Source: a virus
Length of the DNA: 24,703 nt
Strand: one strand, 5' to 3'
IMG/VR virus record: IMGVR_UViG_3300032291_001844
Location: 1-24,703 of that record
Position 1 is the stretch's first letter; every line of letters begins with the position of its first letter. Positions 2,192-24,597 of the stretch are shown in pieces. The notes under the pieces were generated by a model. It was not told the DNA's origin. It was given only the letters and a program-made list of their open reading frames with translations, and searched no databases. Made by a program: the position numbers and the translations under genes.

Positions 2192-2746
2192 TTAAACTTG
2201 ATAAGCCAATAAACTTCTAATTTCCGTTGGCAAAATTGGATCATCCATGCGTTCTGGATGCCAGGTAATACCTGCTATATTTTTATCTATCCACGCTTCA
2301 CAATTGCCGTCACTGTCTTGTGCTAAATTAACAGCATCACGATGTAACCGTGTTATCGTCTGTGTGTGAAAAGAATTTACTAAAATCTGTTCATTATCAT
2401 ATTCTACAACATGCTCGGTATCCATGTGGCCTTCACAAGCATCTACCTGTCCGCCTAATATATCAGTTAACAAAAATGCACCATGGCAGATACCCAAAAT
2501 AGGTTTTACCCGTTTCATCATTGCAGTAGCGATTTTTAGTTCTGTAGTACGTCGGATGGCGCTGTCATCGCCGCCTGTGATAATCAAACAATCCAATGAG
2601 TTGGCCAGTTCTTCAAAATCTTGATCTAGGCGATTTGGAATAAAAGAAAGCGTATGATTTTTTAAAAAACGGTACCAACCGTGTTCTAAACCATCATACG
2701 CCCTACCTTTGTGATACAGAACTCGTTGAGTGAGTCCTATGTTCAT
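2192..2746 (-). CDS. Class I glutamine amidotransferase-like (peptidase C26 type)
   Basis: The 184-residue product shows the catalytic triad layout of class I amidotransferases: nucleophile Cys87 in GICHG, and His163 with Glu165 in WHPER. ITGGDD at 56-61 forms the usual N-terminal loop. It resembles the gamma-glutamyl-GABA hydrolase (PuuD)/peptidase C26 branch and lacks any fused synthase domain, so it may hydrolyse a gamma-glutamyl bond or pass ammonia to a partner. It is shorter than PuuD, which is about 250 residues. It starts 7 bases after the stop of the upstream ferritin-like gene, so the two are probably one transcript; the ribosome site is weak, consistent with coupling. Its role in a phage is unknown. 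Confidence 0.85.
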   Translation of the reverse strand: MNIGLTQRVLYHKGRAYDGLEHGWYRFLKNHTLSFIPNRLDQDFEELANSLDCLIITGGDDSAIRRTTELKIATAMMKRVKPILGICHGAFLLTDILGGQVDACEGHMDTEHVVEYDNEQILVNSFHTQTITRLHRDAVNLAQDSDGNCEAWIDKNIAGITWHPERMDDPILPTEIRSLLAYQV

Positions 2747-2753
2747 ATGTTGC

Positions 2754-3464
2754 TTACCAACCGTAGGCTGTAGCAGCTAATTCACGTGCAGCTGGAGTAT
2801 CACATGTGTTGCCTGTGATGATTTCATATAGCTCTTTGCGCATTTGTTTTGCCATTGCCAAAGCACGCTCTGCAACTGCTGGGTCAGCATCTTGTAGTTT
2901 TTCTAAACGAACAGCACCAATGTTTGAATGGAAATGTTCGTCATCACCAATCTTTTTATATTTGTCAGCTACAAACTGATCAACTGCTTTAATTTCATGC
3001 ATGCATAACCAACTTGTTGCAGCACGACCTTCGGCAACTAACTGATAAACAGCTAATGCAACTGGGTCTGTGTCTGTGTTGTATGTTTGTAATGTTGCAG
3101 CACCTTTGTCGTCAGATTTGCGAGCAAATTCACGGTTTAGATACGCACCTGTGTCAACTGCTTCGCCGGAGATGTGCTCAATAACTTCCTTTACCAAGCG
3201 GAAATGAACAGCTTCATCTTGTGCTTGTTTAGTCAACAACAGCATTTCTTCTGCTGATGTTTCTGGTGGAAGATTGGCCACAGCTTCAGAGATTCCAATC
3301 ATATTCATATATTCGTTGGCTAAACGACCTTGGAAGTGTAGTAAGTACTCTTCTTTAGTTCTCGCCGGGTCATTAAACCAATGGCGAATGTTCATTTTAC
3401 TTGCTTCAAATAATGGTTGATTTTCCTCGCGGATTTTAGCAACTAATTCTTTACCTGTCATCAT
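2754..3464 (-). CDS. Ferritin-like diiron protein
   Basis: The 236-residue protein shows the four-helix carboxylate-bridged diiron pattern: Glu51 (ANEYMN), Glu84-x-x-His87 (DEAVHF), Glu145 (VAEGRA) and Glu176-x-x-His179 (EHFH). That E...ExxH...E...ExxH order matches ferritin-like oxidases and oxygenases more than iron-storage ferritin, which has a different set. The spacing resembles PaaA/PaaC-like and RNR-like folds; no closer family is recognised. Two ATGs stand in tandem at the start, preceded by a strong AAGGAGA ribosome site. A late-promoter-like box lies about 32 bases upstream. The adjacent amidotransferase follows within 7 bases. An oxidative tailoring activity is possible; the substrate is unknown. 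Confidence 0.75.
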   Translation of the reverse strand: MMTGKELVAKIREENQPLFEASKMNIRHWFNDPARTKEEYLLHFQGRLANEYMNMIGISEAVANLPPETSAEEMLLLTKQAQDEAVHFRLVKEVIEHISGEAVDTGAYLNREFARKSDDKGAATLQTYNTDTDPVALAVYQLVAEGRAATSWLCMHEIKAVDQFVADKYKKIGDDEHFHSNIGAVRLEKLQDADPAVAERALAMAKQMRKELYEIITGNTCDTPAARELAATAYGW

Positions 3465-3588: not shown

Positions 3589-4209
3589 ATGAACACTTCA
3601 ACGAAATATTTTAATTACGGTATTCCACCCCACCCATTATTGCCGGTATATGGGCTGTATCAACCTAGTTTTGACCGTTTTTTAGTGGTACATACATCGT
3701 TATCTTTATTAAATAAGATAAAATCTTTGCTTACTTCAAGATATAATACATTTACAGTTTGTTTAAATACAGCAGACAACTACTTTTACAAAATAATTGA
3801 CAATTCTGTATGTGAAAATTGGACTTTTGAAAATAAAGATATGTTAAACATAAATTCACCTTCTAATATATTTATAGATGATGAAAATATCTGTGCTACT
3901 AACTTAATAGATAACACAGTATTGTCTGATGAAACTATTCTTAAAGAAAAACAATGGGTATTAATGTGCATGCACTGGGTGTATGCTATTACATTATCTA
4001 GGACCATTTATAATAATTGTACTTACTATGGAAAATTAGATACAGATCTTAGAAATATTATCGATCACGATTTAAACTACGTACCTGAAGAATCAATTGT
4101 GCCAAACAAAATTTTAAAATTACTATATTTTGGAGTAGATTTTGAAAAAACAAATTATCAAATTATAGAATTAGCGAATACTCACGAAATCCTTAGCTTA
4201 TATGCTTAG
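3589..4209 (+). CDS. Unknown protein, partner of the PP-loop ATPase
   Basis: The 206-residue product matches no family that I recognise. It is rich in Asn, Ile, Tyr and Leu, has no signal peptide and no clear membrane helix, and has several scattered cysteines without a CxxC metal motif. The coding sequence is much more AT-rich than the genes from 5361 onward. It starts the plus-strand group after the divergent spacer; no good Shine-Dalgarno precedes the ATG. Its last 8 bases overlap the start of the PP-loop gene, so the two are almost certainly co-translated and may form a complex or an enzyme-substrate pair. That pairing is an inference from position. Confidence 0.75.
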   Translation: MNTSTKYFNYGIPPHPLLPVYGLYQPSFDRFLVVHTSLSLLNKIKSLLTSRYNTFTVCLNTADNYFYKIIDNSVCENWTFENKDMLNINSPSNIFIDDENICATNLIDNTVLSDETILKEKQWVLMCMHWVYAITLSRTIYNNCTYYGKLDTDLRNIIDHDLNYVPEESIVPNKILKLLYFGVDFEKTNYQIIELANTHEILSLYA

Positions 4210-5359
4210 AAAAATCATCTATATAAATCAACTTTTATTAACAGATATTACTTTTAAACGATATCCATTATTAGAAAATTTGTTAGTAAACTATTATCCA
4301 AAATTTCATACTTACTTAAATGTTGGTAAGTTTACTGCTCATGCAAATGCCTATTTTAGGAGTGGAGTTAATTTATTTCCTTTTGATTATTCTACTGATT
4401 TTTTAAATGCTAGAATTCCTCAATTTGAACTTAATTTTAATTTATCATTTGAAGATGTCTGCGACAAAAGATGTTTGGAATTATTAAAAACTCATAGTGA
4501 TAAACCGTGGCATGTATTATGGAGCGGTGGTACCGATTCTACTACTATACTAGTAAGTATTTTGAGAAATACTACTCCAAAGCAAAGAAAAAATATATTT
4601 GTTTCTTGCAATAGAATAAGTGTTTATGAAAATCCTAGATTTTTCAATGATTATATATTCCCAAATTTTTCCATAGTCGATAGTTCGGCTATTATTTTAA
4701 CCAAAGAAAACTTAGAAAAACATTATTATTTTGATGGACACCCTGCAGATAATTTATATTCTGGAAAATTTCCTCAAAGCATGCTATTGGCAGATTCAAA
4801 AAGTTTTAATAGAGATATTAAAAACGATCCCGATCAACTAGTAGATTTTATAGCTAAAAAAATAGATAGAGAATTTGCAGTTTGGTTCTACGACGCCATG
4901 ATAAAAAATATAAATTCCGTAGACGTACCAATAAAAACATATCACGATTTTTTCTGGTGGATTCAATTTAACTTATCCTGGATAAGTAATAGAACGTTTC
5001 CGTTAAGATCCGGAATAATTTCTGCAGATAGTGTAAAACTTTACTTTGATAATTATATCCAATGGTATAATTCAAAAGAGTTTCAATTATGGGCTATGCG
5101 TAATAATGATGAAGGAATAAAATATGGTAATACAGTAGGTGAATATAAACTAAATGCAAAAAAATATATTTACGATTATACCAAAGATGAATATTTTTAT
5201 AAATTTAAAACTAAAATGGCATCTGGAGCGCACTTATCATCATGTGATAAAAATTTATTCTGTTTAACAGATGATTATTCTATTTTAACCTTAGAACAAG
5301 ATTACAAAGAAATTTTAAATCTTTTACCAACACATTTAACTAACAATAATTGGAAATAA
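4202..5359 (+). CDS. PP-loop ATP pyrophosphatase-like (adenine nucleotide alpha hydrolase) protein
   Basis: Residues 108-113 read SGGTDS within HVLWSGGTDSTTILV, the pyrophosphate-binding PP-loop of the N-type ATP pyrophosphatase family (asparagine synthetase B, QueC, MnmA, NAD synthetase). These enzymes adenylate a carboxyl or carbonyl group and then add a nitrogen or sulfur nucleophile. About 100 residues precede the loop, but I see no N-terminal Cys nucleophile of a glutaminase, and no CxxC pair as in thiolation enzymes. Thus it is not a plain AsnB or MnmA. The gene is strikingly AT-rich: bases 4561-4620 contain only 15 G or C. It overlaps the preceding gene by 8 bases and ends one base before the nucleotidase. 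The substrate is unknown. Confidence 0.75.
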   Translation: MLRKIIYINQLLLTDITFKRYPLLENLLVNYYPKFHTYLNVGKFTAHANAYFRSGVNLFPFDYSTDFLNARIPQFELNFNLSFEDVCDKRCLELLKTHSDKPWHVLWSGGTDSTTILVSILRNTTPKQRKNIFVSCNRISVYENPRFFNDYIFPNFSIVDSSAIILTKENLEKHYYFDGHPADNLYSGKFPQSMLLADSKSFNRDIKNDPDQLVDFIAKKIDREFAVWFYDAMIKNINSVDVPIKTYHDFFWWIQFNLSWISNRTFPLRSGIISADSVKLYFDNYIQWYNSKEFQLWAMRNNDEGIKYGNTVGEYKLNAKKYIYDYTKDEYFYKFKTKMASGAHLSSCDKNLFCLTDDYSILTLEQDYKEILNLLPTHLTNNNWK

Positions 5360-5360
5360 C

Positions 5361-5870
5361 ATGGCAACAATATTTTTAGACATGGATGGAGTAGTATCAG
5401 ACTTTGATGGCTACGCAGAACCAATAGTAGGATTTCGCACACCGGGCGGTGTACGTTATGATCAAGAAGGTTGGTCGTTGATTTCAGCTAACCAACGAGT
5501 GTATAGAGATTTACCTGAGATGAAGGATGCAGATCGATTGGTAAAAGAAGTTCAACAGTTGGCAAAAGATAATGGAATGGATGTACGTTTCTTAACTGCT
5601 ATCCCTAGACAGAACGATGTGCCTTGGGTACATTGGGATAAAATCAAATGGATTGAACAACGTTGGGCAGATATTCCTGTGTTCTTTGGTCCTTACAGCA
5701 ACGACAAACACCAACACTGTAAAAGCCTAGACGATGTACTAATTGATGATCGTCCTAGCAACATCGAGGAATGGCGTGCCGCTGGTGGTAAAGCTATTCT
5801 ACACACCGGTGATGTTATTGCTACACTGATCGACCTACGTAGTCTAGTGAAGAGTATCAGTGTTCAGTAG
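5361..5870 (+). CDS. HAD-family 5'-nucleotidase (cytosolic dNT type C-like)
   Basis: The 169-residue protein has the HAD motifs in order: DMDGV with Asp7 and Asp9 as nucleophile and acid, Thr79 in FLTAIP (motif II), Lys116 in the SNDKHQH region (motif III), and LIDDR with Asp129 and Asp130 (motif IV). The overall form fits the 5'(3')-deoxyribonucleotidase NT5C-like family, which dephosphorylates nucleoside monophosphates. In a phage it may tune nucleotide pools alongside NrdA/B; this is inferred. A GGAAA ribosome site lies inside the end of the PP-loop gene, one base upstream of the spacer. The base composition returns to that of the rest of the window. Its 3' end overlaps the opposing minus-strand gene by 27 bases. 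Confidence 0.85.
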   Translation: MATIFLDMDGVVSDFDGYAEPIVGFRTPGGVRYDQEGWSLISANQRVYRDLPEMKDADRLVKEVQQLAKDNGMDVRFLTAIPRQNDVPWVHWDKIKWIEQRWADIPVFFGPYSNDKHQHCKSLDDVLIDDRPSNIEEWRAAGGKAILHTGDVIATLIDLRSLVKSISVQ

Positions 5871-6077
5871 TTGATCAGGATTATCAACACCTAGCAGTCT
5901 AAATAGTTTTAATAAGTCCGCACTAAGTTCAAAGTCTACTGTAGGTGGAAATATAACATTTTTCATCTTACCATCGGCACCAATCACAAACACATAATCA
6001 TCTTCAGCTAATCCGTCAAATGGATCAGCGTCGTTTAAATTGGGGTCGTTTAAAAGCTCGTCTGTGATTTTTGCCAT
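5844..6077 (-). CDS. Small acidic phage protein, function unknown
   Basis: I chose the ATG at 6077 (77 residues) over the ATG at 6083 because the GGAAA ribosome site sits about 8 bases before the former and almost touches the latter. The product is acidic and begins MAKITDELLNDPNLND, with an aromatic-acidic centre. I recognise no domain. It overlaps the metalloprotein gene upstream by 53 bases in another frame and the convergent nucleotidase gene by 27 bases, so it is wedged between two real genes. A small, acidic protein of this form in this setting is likely real, but less certain than its neighbours. Confidence 0.65.
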   Translation of the reverse strand: MAKITDELLNDPNLNDADPFDGLAEDDYVFVIGADGKMKNVIFPPTVDFELSADLLKLFRLLGVDNPDQLLNTDTLH

Positions 6078-6732
6078 TGTCATTTTCCTTATAATATTTT
6101 ACGTTTGCTCGGACTTTCTTTAATAATAATTTTGTTACTTCGTGGTCTTTGCCAAATGCTTTATAATATTGTTTTAGATCTGGACTGTTAATCTTACTAA
6201 CACTAGTAATATTTAACTTGTATTTCATTAAATAGTGTCTAGCTGCTATGTTTTGAGCATAAGCGTCAATTTCATCAGGGTCGCCTAGATATTCCTGATC
6301 AGCTCGTTTGTCAAGATCTCTGTGATCACTCTTGTAAGTATTCCTATGATAGCGATATCTACGACTGCGGAATTGACGCTGATGTTCATACTCATGGATT
6401 AATGTTTCTAATAGATCCATGGCCAATTGGTCAGCCATTTCAGCTGAGATTGTAATAGGCACAGTCTTAGGATGATTTAAAATGAAGTCTAGAATAAACT
6501 GTTTCTTTTTAATCTCATCTAAGCCAGGATCATACTCTGCCCCAATGGTAAACTCACCAGGTTTAAGAGAACTTTTATCGCCAGTATAGAGTTTAACACG
6601 TATAGGATGTTGATGTTTATTTAGGTGTTTGCCAAGACGTTTGACAAGACTGCGAGGAGTAATACGCTCCCCAACCAACGTAGATAACCATTCGCTGATA
6701 TGATTATATTCTACTGTTGGATTTAGGTACAT
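6025..6732 (-). CDS. HExxH metalloprotein, possible zinc protease
   Basis: The 235-residue product has HEYEHQ at about residues 113-118, an HExxH zinc-binding motif within a predicted helix (LLETLIHEYEHQRQF). A second acidic stretch, GDPDEIDAYAQNIA, about 30 residues downstream could supply the third ligand, as in gluzincin-type or SprT-like proteins. Both termini are basic, with many His, Arg and Lys residues, suggesting nucleic acid contact. There is no signal peptide. An AAAGG ribosome site precedes the ATG. Whether it cleaves protein is unproven; it could be an assembly or scaffold-processing protease or a structural metal site. Confidence 0.7.
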   Translation of the reverse strand: MYLNPTVEYNHISEWLSTLVGERITPRSLVKRLGKHLNKHQHPIRVKLYTGDKSSLKPGEFTIGAEYDPGLDEIKKKQFILDFILNHPKTVPITISAEMADQLAMDLLETLIHEYEHQRQFRSRRYRYHRNTYKSDHRDLDKRADQEYLGDPDEIDAYAQNIAARHYLMKYKLNITSVSKINSPDLKQYYKAFGKDHEVTKLLLKKVRANVKYYKENDNGKNHRRAFKRPQFKRR

Positions 6733-13513: not shown

Positions 13514-14332
13514 CTAACGGTAAAATTTAAGTTCTTGCTCTGTTACCAATGGAGGAAAATTAGGTTTTTCTAAATTGGTTTCGTGTTCGCCCAATGCCGT
13601 ATGCCAAGTTAAATCTTGTGGGCAAAATTCGCATTGTGCTATGGGTGTGTCTTTAGTTTTGGCAAAATTTTGTAGGTCTTCTTCACTGCAATCAGCAGAT
13701 AATGGTTTGTAACTATATAACAGCTCACGTTGCCTGTCGTCCAATGTCAATCCAAATTGATTATCAAAATCTGGTAAATTACTCATAGCAGGACATTTAT
13801 ACAACTTGCCTTGATACATAGTATGATCGTGTTTCATGTCACAACTGTTAAAAGCCTTTACAGGGTCGCTGGTATGTAAAACAAAATGATCATCTTGTTT
13901 TATAACTGTGCTTTGGTGAAAAGTGTATGCTTCGATAAATCCTGCACGATGTTTCCAACGCTCACGTATTTCGTCTGCTGTTTTGGGGTCGTGCAGACTA
14001 ACTCCGTATCCAATATTATACTTGCCCCAAAAATCCACGTGTTCTGGTCGCTGATATGTACCGTTAGTCTGTACCATAATGACTGCATTAGGCCATAGTC
14101 TACGTAGATTCATGGCCCATAATTCTAAATCAGGATTAAGCGTTGGCTCGCCACCTATAATAGTTATTCTTGGAAGATCTAATCTTTTAGCCCATGCTTC
14201 ATAGGCGTCGGCATGATCTGCCCACAGTTGATGCCCTTTAAAATTATAGTTGTTAAAGCGATTACAGCCGCGACAGCTGAGATTGCAGACGTTGGTTATA
14301 TAAAATTCTACTACTGGAAATAAACGAATCAT
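13514..14332 (-). CDS. Radical SAM protein with C-terminal cysteine cluster
   Basis: The 272-residue protein has the radical SAM [4Fe-4S] motif CNLSCRGC (Cys16, Cys20, Cys23) and the AdoMet-binding GGEPTLNP (60-67). C-terminal cysteines Cys164, Cys180, Cys215, Cys234 and Cys237 (the last two as CEFC) suggest a SPASM- or twitch-like auxiliary cluster, as in enzymes that modify peptides or other large substrates. The substrate is unknown. It lies directly upstream of the Fe-S assembly operon, from which it could draw clusters. A 17-base palindrome containing a late-type box abuts its ATG, with no Shine-Dalgarno visible. It is not closely related to the two paralogues near the helicase. Confidence 0.85.
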   Translation of the reverse strand: MIRLFPVVEFYITNVCNLSCRGCNRFNNYNFKGHQLWADHADAYEAWAKRLDLPRITIIGGEPTLNPDLELWAMNLRRLWPNAVIMVQTNGTYQRPEHVDFWGKYNIGYGVSLHDPKTADEIRERWKHRAGFIEAYTFHQSTVIKQDDHFVLHTSDPVKAFNSCDMKHDHTMYQGKLYKCPAMSNLPDFDNQFGLTLDDRQRELLYSYKPLSADCSEEDLQNFAKTKDTPIAQCEFCPQDLTWHTALGEHETNLEKPNFPPLVTEQELKFYR

Positions 14333-21033: not shown

Positions 21034-21316
21034 TGTTGATCTTCCTGATACCGCGTGAGAATTTTGCAGGATCTTGGCCCTTGATAGCGTTTAATAAGCG
21101 ATTTTCTAGCTTAGTGGCTGTTTCAACATCATAGTTTTCACGTATGTGATTGATAAGATTAATAGCACCATTGATGATGTTATTAGCACGTGATTCAAGG
21201 AGATTTTCCTTGTCCTTGTGCGTTAATAACTCGTCTAATTCGGTGAGTAGGCTACGGGTGCGTTTCTGCAAGATCTTGCTCCAGTTTAGAGTATTTATCA
21301 AATCCGCAGTTATCAT
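21023..21316 (-). CDS. Conserved helical phage protein of unknown function
   Basis: The 97-residue product is helical and charged (RSLLTELDELLTHKDKENLL, ESRANNIINGAINLINHI), ending KGQDPAKFSRGIRKI. I recall this small protein in T4-like marine phages without function. The first ATG at 21316 gives a 65-base overlap with the radical SAM gene upstream, and a GATAAATAC late-type box lies within its first codons, so the true start may be a few codons downstream, for example a TTG near residue 16. It overlaps the next gene by 11 bases. Confidence 0.7.
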   Translation of the reverse strand: MITADLINTLNWSKILQKRTRSLLTELDELLTHKDKENLLESRANNIINGAINLINHIRENYDVETATKLENRLLNAIKGQDPAKFSRGIRKINNED

Positions 21317-22301
21317 TACAGCAGACTAAACGACCATCTTCAAATGTGTCTTTATTCCAGCTGTCTTCTACTTGATTAAACCATTGTATACATTTATCTA
21401 AGCTGTATTCTAATGCATTATTTTTAGAAATTAACGGAGCTATCTGTGCATTAACCGCTTCGTGATATTCCCCCTTGCCATAAGTTTTAGGATTGAATCC
21501 CATATAACAGCAAGGATATACATCGCCTATCGAGCTAATATAAATTGATCGTGCTTTTTTGGTATAACAATCTATGTTATCTTTAGGTTTGATGTAAGGT
21601 ATAATATCTTCTAATAAAATCATGTCCGTGCGTTTTTTATGGAACAATATTTCAAAACTAGTTTCACCTTGATAATTGCCTAATATATGTAACAAATTAC
21701 CCTGTTTATCATATACTGGTCCACTATCTCTTCCATGATCTATCAATTCAAAATCTGTAAATCCTAATTGTTTTGCTAACTTTTTACAGTCGTTAATTTG
21801 ATGTTTGTTATGATCAAATCTTATCATTTTCCATACAGCCATTCCGCCTGCTGATATAAAAATTTTAGCATTTTTTATAATAGTTTTCCAATTGGTATTT
21901 TGTCTATACAAATGATGTGTGTCTTCTAATCCATCTAAACAAAATAAAACATTTACTTTTGCTTGGGCCAATCGTTGCCAAAAAGATTTATCTCTGGCAG
22001 ATGCATTAGTACTGATGTCTATAATTAAATTTTTGTTTTGTGATCTAAAATATTCAACGATATCCGGTGTTTCTGGATTCATCACAGCATCACCAAAATT
22101 ACCATTGATATTGATACGATTCAATTGTTTTAAAAGTGCAGAAGTGAAAATATGTTTGGCATTATCTAATGTTAGATTAGCCTCAACATATCCATCATTG
22201 TAAGGATACCCACGAAAATTACGGGGACATAAAGGACATCGAGCATTACATAGGGATGAGATTTCTAGATGAATTTCTCTAATCTGATCATAGGATATCA
22301 T
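21252..22301 (-). CDS. Radical SAM/SPASM-like protein (paralogue A)
   Basis: The 349-residue protein has CNARCPLC (Cys18, Cys22, Cys25) as the cluster motif and GNFGDAVMNP (67-76) in the place of the GGEP motif. The C-terminus has Cys245, a Cys264-Cys265 pair, Cys304, Cys327-Cys328 and Cys332, fitting a SPASM auxiliary-cluster domain. The product is thus a candidate peptide or macromolecule modifier. It is clearly related to the gene on the other side of the helicase: both share STN-x-S, a FWQ/WWQ-x-L, a VWKMIRF/IWKYIPF block and ELGF. Its ATG overlaps the helicase stop (ATGA). The coding sequence is AT-rich next to the helicase. Substrate unknown. Confidence 0.85.
   Translation of the reverse strand: MISYDQIREIHLEISSLCNARCPLCPRNFRGYPYNDGYVEANLTLDNAKHIFTSALLKQLNRININGNFGDAVMNPETPDIVEYFRSQNKNLIIDISTNASARDKSFWQRLAQAKVNVLFCLDGLEDTHHLYRQNTNWKTIIKNAKIFISAGGMAVWKMIRFDHNKHQINDCKKLAKQLGFTDFELIDHGRDSGPVYDKQGNLLHILGNYQGETSFEILFHKKRTDMILLEDIIPYIKPKDNIDCYTKKARSIYISSIGDVYPCCYMGFNPKTYGKGEYHEAVNAQIAPLISKNNALEYSLDKCIQWFNQVEDSWNKDTFEDGRLVCCNDNCGFDKYSKLEQDLAETHP
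21291..21299 (-). promoter_or_regulatory. Late-promoter-like box before the 97-residue gene
   Basis: GATAAATAC on the minus strand lies within the overlap of the radical SAM gene and the annotated start of the 97-residue gene. If used, transcripts would start downstream of the first ATG, favouring a later start codon and marking the switch from replication to late genes. Confidence 0.4.
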
Positions 22302-23692
22302 TCTGAGGTATTCTTAAGACCAGCTAACATGCTCTTAAGTTTGCTACTGTCCACACCTGCTTGTATCTTAGATTCTTCGCCGGGTGCTACTGTTGAATTT
22401 GTTTTGATCTGACTTAGGATATTAGTTGCACCAACTCCACGCAATCCGCTTTCCTGTGCTTCTTCACCTGGATCTGTAATACGCAGTGTTTCTAAATCAA
22501 ATTCCAGATCTACTTTCATACCCACGCCACTTGAACTACGTGTCTTCATAAGTTGCAGTTGATAACGACCCCGCTCACGCATGGCACGGCTAGTAAAGAT
22601 ACCAAACACGTTATCAGCTGTGTTGATCTTACTTAACCCGCCTGCGATATGACTATGGTCAAATTCAATCTCTTCAACTGCACCACGATTAAGTTGTGAC
22701 GCTGTAATCATTAATATGTTTAACTCACGTGCTAAATTTCTTAACTCTTCTGACACATATTTGTCTTTGACAAACAAGTCATTTGGGCTGACTTTAGCAC
22801 TTACAGGCATGACCAAATCCAAATAGTCTACCATGATAAAGTCTATTCGTAATCCTGTTTGTACTTGTAATTCTTTAAGATAAGATCTAATTTGATTTAC
22901 ATTACTCTGTGCTGGCATATACTTGATACGTAAAGCACCCGACTTCTTACCTACCATTTTAACTTTCATTTCAACTGTGTCAAGATCCTTGAACACTTCT
23001 TTGGTGCTACAGTTAGCTACCATACTGTCCATACGCATAGCGCACAAGCCTTCACTGAGTTCTAATGTTAAGAACACACCGTTAAGTCCTTGTGTACACC
23101 AATTAATAGCGATGTTCTGCATGAATAAACTTTTACCTGAACCCGATCCACCTGCAAAGATATTAAGTTCACCACGGTTCATACCACCAAATAATCGTTT
23201 ATCAAGAGTTGGCCAACCAGTGCTTACCTGCCCGTTATTGCTCTTGATCGCCAACAATCTAGCACGTGGATCCAAGAAATAGTCAGTGCCCATGTCTTTG
23301 GTTAATGATATTTGTACTGCATCTTTGATTAGTTTTTCTACAGGATCATAATCACCTTTTTCTAGCAAGTCTGCTGATTTGAGGATCGCCCGTTCTAATT
23401 CATTCCTGCGAGTAAAGCCTTCAAACTCCGCCATGAACCAACTGTAGTGATCTTCTGTCAGATCTGGTACACGTTTAAGATCAACGCTGGTAACTGCTTT
23501 TACCTGCTCATGTGTGGGCATGGCTTTATGATCATCAGTGTGTGACTTGATAAACTTAGCCACTTCACGTAGACTTCGATCAAAGTTTTCTGGATTATAG
23601 ATATTCTGCACACGCACATAGCTCTGTGCATCTTCTAGCATCATTTCTAAAAATAGTTTCTGTAGTTCTGGGGAGTATTCTTTCGTTGTCAT
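22298..23692 (-). CDS. gp41: Replicative DNA helicase (T4 gp41/DnaB family)
   Basis: The 464-residue protein has the RecA-fold motor: Walker A GGSGSGKS at 181-188, Walker B in DFIMVDYLDLV with Asp289, and a sensor-like TASQLNRG near 330-337. An arginine-rich RERGRYQLQLMKTR near 370-385 fits the arginine finger and late motifs. The N-terminal 130 residues are helical, as in gp41 and DnaB. It unwinds the replication fork as a hexamer in the 5'-3' direction and pairs with a primase, which is not in the window. Its ends overlap the two flanking radical SAM genes by 4 bases each. Confidence 0.94.
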   Translation of the reverse strand: MTTKEYSPELQKLFLEMMLEDAQSYVRVQNIYNPENFDRSLREVAKFIKSHTDDHKAMPTHEQVKAVTSVDLKRVPDLTEDHYSWFMAEFEGFTRRNELERAILKSADLLEKGDYDPVEKLIKDAVQISLTKDMGTDYFLDPRARLLAIKSNNGQVSTGWPTLDKRLFGGMNRGELNIFAGGSGSGKSLFMQNIAINWCTQGLNGVFLTLELSEGLCAMRMDSMVANCSTKEVFKDLDTVEMKVKMVGKKSGALRIKYMPAQSNVNQIRSYLKELQVQTGLRIDFIMVDYLDLVMPVSAKVSPNDLFVKDKYVSEELRNLARELNILMITASQLNRGAVEEIEFDHSHIAGGLSKINTADNVFGIFTSRAMRERGRYQLQLMKTRSSSGVGMKVDLEFDLETLRITDPGEEAQESGLRGVGATNILSQIKTNSTVAPGEESKIQAGVDSSKLKSMLAGLKNTSE

Positions 23693-24597
23693 AGTTTAGG
23701 GCAATTAAAAGTACAGTAATTTAGTTTAGCATCTTCTAGTGTAGAATAAAAGTCTTTAAGGTAATCTAAAACTTGTGTAATAGTAGTTTTACTTATGTCG
23801 TAGTGATCTTTGTTCTTATAGAATTCGGTTTTATAATAAAATCTATGATCTCCTGCAAAACAACAGGAAGTATAAAATCCATCAGCTGATATATAATGTT
23901 GGGAATTATCAATCTTGCATTTTGGTGTTATTTCTCCCGTTCTTTCCAGATTATTTTTCCACTTAACTATGCTATCACTACGAATAGTAGTATTGTGTTT
24001 ATTTGGTTTTAACCAATCATCTTCTCCGTCCCATCTGTCACTTGGCCTTACTGAAAATTCATCAAACCCAAGTTCTTTAGATAATTTATTAACCTGATCG
24101 ATATCATTCTCATTGAATGAAAATGGAATATATTTCCAAATTGATTTTACATGAGAATTAGTTACTGTATCAACACCCCAATGAATTGATTCCCAATCAG
24201 CATTTATCCTATACTGTGTAAAATTATCAGGAGTTCCGTCGATGGCAAAAATTATCGTATCATCTTTATCTAATAGCGAAACTAATTGTTGCCACCAGAT
24301 TTTTGTTTTGTAACTGCCGTTAGTGGACAAACTTATTATGCATCTTTGTTCTTTAAAATAGTTAATCATTTCAAACAGTTGATCGTAATATATAGGATCA
24401 CCATAATTTCCGCAAAGATTTATACCTTTGCCTGTGAGATCTATATCTAAAAATGATTTTAAATGATCTAGATTTAAATTTTTATTTGTCCAACGTTTAG
24501 GAAATTGTTCAATAAATTTTGTGCGACTACAACGAGGGCACTTTAAGGTGCACATATTTGTAGGTTCGATATGCAAGCCTTGTAGTTGATCAAGCAT
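23689..24597 (-). CDS. Radical SAM/SPASM-like protein (paralogue B)
   Basis: The 302-residue product has CTLKCPRC (Cys16, Cys20, Cys23) and CGNYGDPIYY (62-71) in the GGEP position. Auxiliary cysteines are Cys227, the Cys245-Cys246 pair, Cys295 and Cys299. It is a diverged copy of the radical SAM protein at 21252-22301, about 45 residues shorter. Its coding sequence is AT-rich compared with the helicase gene. It overlaps the preceding unidentified gene by 8 bases and the helicase by 4, so it is embedded in the replication operon. Possible targets include phage or host proteins or a peptide; nothing in the sequence identifies one. Confidence 0.84.
   Translation of the reverse strand: MLDQLQGLHIEPTNMCTLKCPRCSRTKFIEQFPKRWTNKNLNLDHLKSFLDIDLTGKGINLCGNYGDPIYYDQLFEMINYFKEQRCIISLSTNGSYKTKIWWQQLVSLLDKDDTIIFAIDGTPDNFTQYRINADWESIHWGVDTVTNSHVKSIWKYIPFSFNENDIDQVNKLSKELGFDEFSVRPSDRWDGEDDWLKPNKHNTTIRSDSIVKWKNNLERTGEITPKCKIDNSQHYISADGFYTSCCFAGDHRFYYKTEFYKNKDHYDISKTTITQVLDYLKDFYSTLEDAKLNYCTFNCPKL

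Follow-up and report, generated by a model that had tools for sequence, protein, structure and literature searches.

The synthetases closest to the locus described here belong to the AsnB class, in which AsnB itself carries an N-terminal Ntn domain with a Cys at its mature N-terminus. In the lasso-peptide cyclase systems McjC/McjB, an AsnB-like enzyme is accompanied by a small dedicated partner. Two other groups, whose names have been given to PP-loop genes in phage genomes, are recognisable by their cysteines: MnmA-type thiouridylases contain a conserved catalytic pair, and QueC has conserved zinc-binding cysteines.

The window considered here, a stretch of 24,703 nucleotides that makes up positions 1 to 24,703 of the virus record IMGVR_UViG_3300032291_001844, encodes a PP-loop protein with an AsnB-type synthetase domain, preceded by a gene for a smaller protein, the partner. 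We hold with moderate confidence that the two form a two-component, ATP-dependent acyl-adenylating amide synthetase whose specificity is set by the partner. The pair belongs to a real and widespread family of two-component AsnB-type synthetases in environmental phages, one that is apparently undescribed. Partners of this family fall into two superfamilies, types A and B, and that of the window is of type A.

Layout and base composition of the locus

The pair and its immediate surroundings comprise the following features.

2192..2746, minus strand: class I glutamine amidotransferase-like protein (C26; Pfam Peptidase_C26 E 2e-15, GATase E 1.1e-11)
2754..3464, minus strand: ferritin-like diiron protein (fold from motifs), divergent neighbour of the pair; weak match to R2-like ligand-binding oxidase (E 1e-4)
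3589..4209, plus strand: type A partner ORF, 206 aa, first gene of the pair
4202..5359, plus strand: AsnB-type synthetase-domain protein (the PP-loop protein), 385 aa, without a glutaminase domain, second gene of the pair
4202..4209, plus strand: 8-base overlap of partner stop and PP-loop gene start
4523..4540, plus strand: PP-loop SGGTDS, residues 108-113; S, G, G, D and S each 62/62 in alignment A6
4748..4750, plus strand: Asp183, 62/62
5207..5215, plus strand: Lys336 and Lys338, both 62/62
5361..5870, plus strand: 5'(3')-deoxyribonucleotidase-like HAD protein (PHROG 2643 E 2.7e-28; Pfam NT5C E 2.2e-6)

The ORFs and the sequence bear out a first-pass annotation that had reported ORFs of 206 and 385 residues, their 8-base overlap and a PP-loop in the longer protein, which reads LWSGGTDST. 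That annotation had also placed the pair alone on the plus strand. In fact the nucleotidase-like gene starts 1 base past the PP-loop stop in the same direction, so that the pair is the head of a three-gene run, and further plus-strand ORFs lie between 83 and 2170.

The pair is indeed more AT-rich than its surroundings, with a GC content of 0.272, whereas 1771-bp windows from the rest of the contig average 0.396 (sd 0.023, minimum 0.351). The mobile cassette proposed from this and from the strand arrangement is not supported. In 69 of 71 family loci the pair has a lower GC content than its own flanks (mean difference -4.6 points), the window being the extreme at -12.2 points; low GC is thus a habit of the family and by itself no sign of a recent arrival of the window copy. 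Moreover, in the kin phage L093 the corresponding site holds a pair of unchanged orientation, with an enzyme only 32 % identical to that of the window beside neighbours that are 75 % identical; this suggests a fixed locus that diverges fast or is allele-swapped.

Elsewhere in the window there are genes that read from the sequence as NrdA/NrdB-, helicase- and tail-like, a part of these names having been tested. Three radical SAM proteins are encoded within the 24.7 kb (13514-14332, 21252-22301 and 23689-24597), the last two of which are paralogues (26 % identity, E 5e-27), and a 235-aa protein (6025-6732), without a confident family, has a HEYEH zincin-like motif noticed by eye.

The PP-loop protein and its partner

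Structure prediction, which had been suggested as a check, gave a confident model of the PP-loop protein (mean pLDDT 91.9, pTM 0.92, built from 62 family sequences) with an AsnB-class synthetase fold; for the partner the outcome was a moderate model (pLDDT 78.8) without a credible fold match among solved structures. The top match of the PP-loop model is the hydroxyamidotransferase TsnB9 (VIA Z 13.4, 266 residues aligned, 4.8 A), followed by beta-lactam synthetase (12.5), human ASNS (12.2), AsnB (11.5) and carbapenam synthetase (11.2). The five enzymes of this class, at Z 10.8-13.4, stand above other PP-loop enzymes, GMP and NAD synthetases reaching 7-9.8 over about 130-170 residues. Foldseek matches are weaker (best E 2.2e-4, TM 0.33-0.41 for the top three), and sequence identity to the AsnB-class structures is 8-13 %. 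Since TsnB9, beta-lactam synthetase and AsnB outrank the GMP and NAD synthetases, ligation or amidation, as surmised at first pass, is the likely chemistry predicted from the model.

The active-site residues are conserved. S108, G109, G110, D112, S113, D183, Q295, W297, K316, K336 and K338 are invariant in all 62 family sequences. Asp183 presumably corresponds to AsnB's second metal-binding Asp, within a G-x-x-x-D motif whose Gly (Gly179) is found in 45 of the 62 members. Lys336 and Lys338 stand, as we assume, at the place of the catalytic Lys of beta-lactam synthetase and AsnB (Lys443/Lys449); the structural alignments, which give ranges and not residue pairs, end at 338 against 443 of 1mb9_A and at 337 against 448 of 1ct9_D. 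The position three before Asp183, which we take to be catalytic in the AsnB/beta-lactam synthetase class, is Glu or Asp in 59 of 62 sequences. The window protein has His180 there instead, so its own activity could differ.

Pfam returned no family for the window protein at E values up to 1, Asn_synthase (PF00733) included, while a paralogue from Pseudomonas phage Cygsa01 (P0001) reached this family at E 0.045, below the cut-off. PHROGs and NCBIfam gave only sub-threshold matches of PP-loop size, at E 0.012 (QueC-like) and E 0.021, respectively. A match to QueC or AsnB, looked for as evidence against an unusual enzyme, was thus not obtained at the family level, but the AsnB-type domain fold was (Z 11.5). 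The protein begins at the synthetase region: chains of the class align only from residues 139-189 onwards, its second residue is Leu, and an N-terminal Ntn (glutaminase-type) domain is absent, nor was one matched in the partner model among solved structures. The earlier statement that known subfamilies do not fit therefore stands as regards conserved thiolation cysteines and a glutaminase domain, both of which are missing, but not as regards the AsnB-type fold, which fits. Given this fold and an invariant active site without the glutaminase domain, the protein probably works like an AsnB-type synthetase, yet lies outside that family.

A tRNA- or nucleobase-modifying enzyme, either QueC-like or thiouridylase-like, is a very unlikely reading of the same protein. 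It would account for the PP-loop, for matches of the QueC-like PHROG 1550 to 30 of the 62 members (E up to 0.01) and for the mnmA annotation deposited for Cygsa01. However, the QueC-like match of the window protein covers the PP-loop region only (residues 78-123), and AsnB-class structures rank first. The best Cys column of the family alignment is occupied in 27 of 62 sequences, so there is no conserved thiolation cysteine; the window protein itself has Cys at 87, 91, 136, 348 and 354. QueC was rejected on this column count, on the lack of a Pfam match and on the restriction of the window match to the PP-loop, MnmA and other thiolases likewise for want of conserved cysteines, and the MnmA label of the Cygsa01 proteins is unsupported by the same count.

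The type A partner of the window consists of a small beta-containing N-terminal domain and a helical C-terminus, with the motif YGLYQPSFDRF. No significant match to it was found in the family libraries (Pfam, PHROGs, NCBIfam) or, as a lone query, in a single-sequence search. The claim that the 206-residue protein has no known family thus holds for these libraries; the PP-loop protein has only the sub-threshold matches mentioned above. The best structural match of the partner is BFVD A0A6J5LWH7 (E 2.8e-9, 27 % identity), and its significant BFVD matches are uncharacterised phage proteins only. Weak matches to prefoldin, eIF2B and similar proteins were judged not credible; one of residues 16-82 to a chain of the Mu tail fibre/chaperone complex (Z 3.0, 22 chains compared) falls in the noise range and is not taken as a sign of homology.

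The window partner has the conserved residues S49-S50 and C75. Among type A partners Ser50 and Cys75 are common to 84 % each, and type B partners have no common Cys and no common attachment-type residue. Modification of the partner by the PP-loop protein, which had been put forward, is for this reason not favoured, though type A partners do share Cys75. Type A clusters are joined by profile comparison with probabilities of 99.0, 92.7 and 87.3 %, and type B clusters with 87.3 %. Between the two types, hhalign gave E 0.0047 for clusters 30 and 2, and E 0.044 with a probability of 1.2 % for the full alignments.

The coupled pair across phage and cellular genomes

A permissive search of phage genomes (E up to 10) with the PP-loop protein found one distant full-domain match, in Pseudomonas phage Cygsa01 (E 3e-6); with a threshold of E 0.01 that query had returned nothing, despite this E value. 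Cygsa01 has two paralogues, XAI71054.1 and XAI71056.1, and a first profile made from these and the window protein led to four IMG/VR loci. One of them, L004, encodes a PP-loop protein that is 41 % identical over nearly its full length, with a homologous partner in front. A second profile matched at least 599 IMG/VR stretches, at least 399 of them encoding relatives; 80 were kept, and removal of identical proteins left 75 distinct loci including the window and Cygsa01. An IMG/VR match of 21 residues (L001), in whose locus no PP-loop gene was seen, was taken as chance. For the alignment, near-copies above 85 % identity were dropped (74 to 64 PP-loop proteins), as were L018 and L086, which have open ends, to give 62 sequences; L006, L009 and L083 were included in the alignments with a partner type assigned by eye or from weak matches. 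At least 44 cellular loci of the PP-loop family were found in bacterial and archaeal genomes.

The profile search in other phages that had been called for shows that the coupled pair recurs. With Cygsa01 set aside, 71 of 74 loci have an ORF on the same strand whose end is at the PP-loop start or a little ahead of it, and a type A or B partner lies directly upstream in 68 of the 74 distinct loci (type A in 36, type B in 32). In L071, L064 and L068 the upstream gene is of neither type. In 69 of 71 cases no more than 30 nt separate the partner stop from the nearest PP-loop start, a 4-base overlap (-4) being the commonest spacing (33/71). Recurrence of the coupled pair in so many distinct phage contigs makes it more than chance. 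In a quick maximum-likelihood tree of 81 PP-loop proteins, with 32 and 35 A/B rows, there is one switch between A and B partners: the partner co-diversifies with the enzyme. Such tracking through great divergence is best explained by an obligate subunit; the two proteins appear to make up an obligate two-component enzyme whose parts diversify jointly.

A toxin-antitoxin or anti-defence pair might be imagined from two coupled, AT-rich and accessory genes, the enzyme being present in up to six copies in one 244-kb contig. We give this hardly any credence: the synthetase active site is complete, the neighbours are metabolic and there is no positive evidence for it.

That the family appears undescribed rests on scans of Pfam, PHROGs and NCBIfam and on the published papers searched, mostly at the level of their abstracts, in which no description of a PP-loop/partner family was found.

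Several arrangements depart from the simple pair. Tandem pairs occur in contigs L061, L075 and L084. Directly behind a radical SAM gene, L091 has a 491-aa ORF (1433-2908; PP-loop match E 2e-31), possibly a fused partner and enzyme. Further PP-loop-bearing proteins of clusters 3 and 18 are encoded near the pair in 18 and 9 of the 68 type A/B loci, respectively (for example L035:5038-5913, L027:8780-9937 and, by eye, L093:1881-3176).

Neighbouring genes, proposed reaction and known systems

The PP-loop protein would bind ATP and Mg in its PP-loop and adenylate a carboxylate with release of pyrophosphate; an amine or ammonia would then attack the acyl-AMP as in AsnB or beta-lactam synthetase, here without a glutaminase domain. 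The partner, of about 200 residues and encoded upstream, stands where the N-terminal domain of AsnB or beta-lactam synthetase would be, and most probably binds the PP-loop protein so as to select or position the substrate. Against an amide synthetase speaks the fact that the family has no constant neighbour that could act as a glutaminase or supply ammonia, the GATase occurring mostly without the pair.

In a split glutamine-dependent amidotransferase, ammonia for the PP-loop protein would come from the GATase-like protein (2192-2746), with the diiron protein acting in the same pathway. The GATase-like protein matches NF045546 (E 9.9e-23) at 81 bits against a cut-off of 250. The four genes lie together in the window and in L004, where the homologues of the diiron protein are 39-40 % identical, and the GATase and diiron genes lie beside a divergent pair in L093, L094 and L096. 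Their occurrence in L004 at first gave the appearance of one module. However, in the 159 IMG/VR loci fetched with the diiron protein or GATase (L090-L248), the diiron protein was matched in 156 and both genes are present in 122, but only 15 have any PP-loop match, some of them distant; among the PP-loop loci, blastp finds both genes only in the window and L004. The four-gene unit is weakened accordingly, we regard the split amidotransferase as improbable, and the diiron protein and GATase are treated as a widespread two-gene phage module that neighbours the pair.

For the two-component synthetase, the neighbours differ between the two clades. Of the 36 type A loci, 24 encode a TctC/DctP solute-binding protein no more than 3 genes away. 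In type B this holds for 3 of 32 loci; for far anchors on the same contigs the figure is 4 of 230, and for anchors in other phage loci 109 of 1017, the last being a control that is not neutral, as its loci were chosen by GATase or diiron protein and some have TctC themselves. Of 128 neighbours for type A and 121 for type B, the scans covered 105 and 115, respectively. TctC/DctP proteins bind organic carboxylates, and AsnB-type enzymes activate carboxylates; a carboxylate was therefore chosen as the substrate class for the window, the likeliest substrate of its clade being a small carboxylate of the TctC/DctP-bound kind. In 12 of the 36 type A loci no TctC/DctP gene lies within 3 genes, nor does one adjoin the pair in the window; L093, with its divergent pair at the same site, has a protein reading as TctC after the GATase.

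Type B loci contain a cupin (12/32), a one-cluster radical SAM protein (9/32) and a Cys-rich tail-adhesin-like protein (8/32), each of which is found in 0 of 36 type A loci. The Cys-rich protein has a tail-adhesin-like N-terminus, is encoded 3-5 genes upstream and in 7 of 8 cases ends in CGG or GGGG. A Polynucleobacter contig shows the order tail fibre-like, Cys-rich protein, radical SAM, small protein, partner B, PP-loop and cupin-like protein. In Xanthomonas sp. GPE 39 and X. albilineans a poly-Pro protein precedes the pair, and in GPE 39 genes for a cupin-like protein and for a prolyl 4-hydroxylase (PDB match E 1.6e-41) lie downstream. In Bacteroidota the enzyme occurs with a cupin-like protein and other small genes, no phage genes being recognised by eye. 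For this sister clade we take a peptide tail of a virion protein to be the likeliest substrate.

Such neighbours could also mean that the whole family serves virion maturation, by introducing amide or isopeptide linkages into a tail-tip protein that has a repetitive C-terminus and is recognised by the partner, in the manner of a RiPP-like cassette. The Cys-rich and poly-Pro loci are consistent with this, as is the position of the Cygsa01 paralogues directly behind a tail fibre and a Gly-rich adhesin-like gene; the Mu tail fibre/chaperone match of the partner would be a further hint were its Z of 3.0 not in the noise range. However, the Cys-rich protein and the one-cluster radical SAM are absent from the type A loci, and a Cys-rich tail protein occurs with the same kind of radical SAM but without a PP-loop neighbour in Achromobacter phage JWF and L293. 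We consider virion maturation by the whole family possible though not probable. Doubtful, too, is a combined reading in which a two-component, glutaminase-free AsnB-type class acts on virion tail-tip C-termini in type B and on solute-binding-protein carboxylates in type A. The type B targets would then be repetitive C-termini (Cys-rich, poly-Gly or poly-Pro, often ending in GG or DG), and with its radical SAM, cupin and prolyl-hydroxylase companions the synthetase would subject the virion's adhesion end to RiPP-like chemistry.

The Cys-rich proteins of L030, L031, L034, L048, L049, L057, L067 and L072 contain 17-31 Cys. They have C-termini such as NCNCACTYNC...CDCACGG and are followed by a radical SAM of one cluster; similar cases are seen at L290:2908-3303 and L293:547-1455. 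In phage JWF (L088:2793-4244 and 4950-6314) a tail fibre has NCNCDCNCNCSC running into a Hint-type domain and lies two genes before a radical SAM that is 42 % identical to that of L031. Proteins with a very long poly-Pro end are encoded beside partner B and PP-loop genes in L264, L277 and L288; in L264 (4230-5258 and 9779-10642) a prolyl 4-hydroxylase follows (PDB match E 1.6e-41).

With the two-component synthetase, an apparent orphan becomes a large enzyme family whose make-up is fixed and open to test: two proteins together with ATP, a carboxylate and a nucleophile. For the annotation of such PP-loop genes in phages this is firmer ground than the labels 'MnmA' or 'QueC-like'. Should the sister clade indeed act on tail tips, phages would use natural-product enzymes for the chemical maturation of their adhesins, and host recognition could be approached from a new angle. 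Should the window clade act on carboxylates, phage-encoded TctC/DctP proteins would gain an enzymatic companion. In published work (PMC4164917, PMC6359870), tctA is named as a viral auxiliary gene.

The two Cygsa01 proteins deposited as 'MnmA', XAI71054.1 and XAI71056.1, are members of the family with 24 % and 17 % identity to the window protein; unlike the latter, they have no type A or B partner directly upstream and lie in a tail-fibre region. The best structural match of the partner, A0A6J5LWH7, is an uncharacterised protein of an uncultured Caudovirales phage. AsnB, beta-lactam synthetase, carbapenam synthetase and TsnB9 share with the PP-loop protein the synthetase fold, SGGxDS, the metal-site Asp and, apparently, the places of the lysines, but at 8-13 % identity and with a family, PF00733, that the window protein does not match. 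AsnB-class enzymes carry their own N-terminal Ntn domain, whereas here a separate, coupled partner without a fold match is found instead. McjC/McjB resembles the pair in joining an AsnB-like enzyme to a small partner, and peptide substrates are conceivable for type B; it differs in that the partner described here has no recognisable fold among solved structures.
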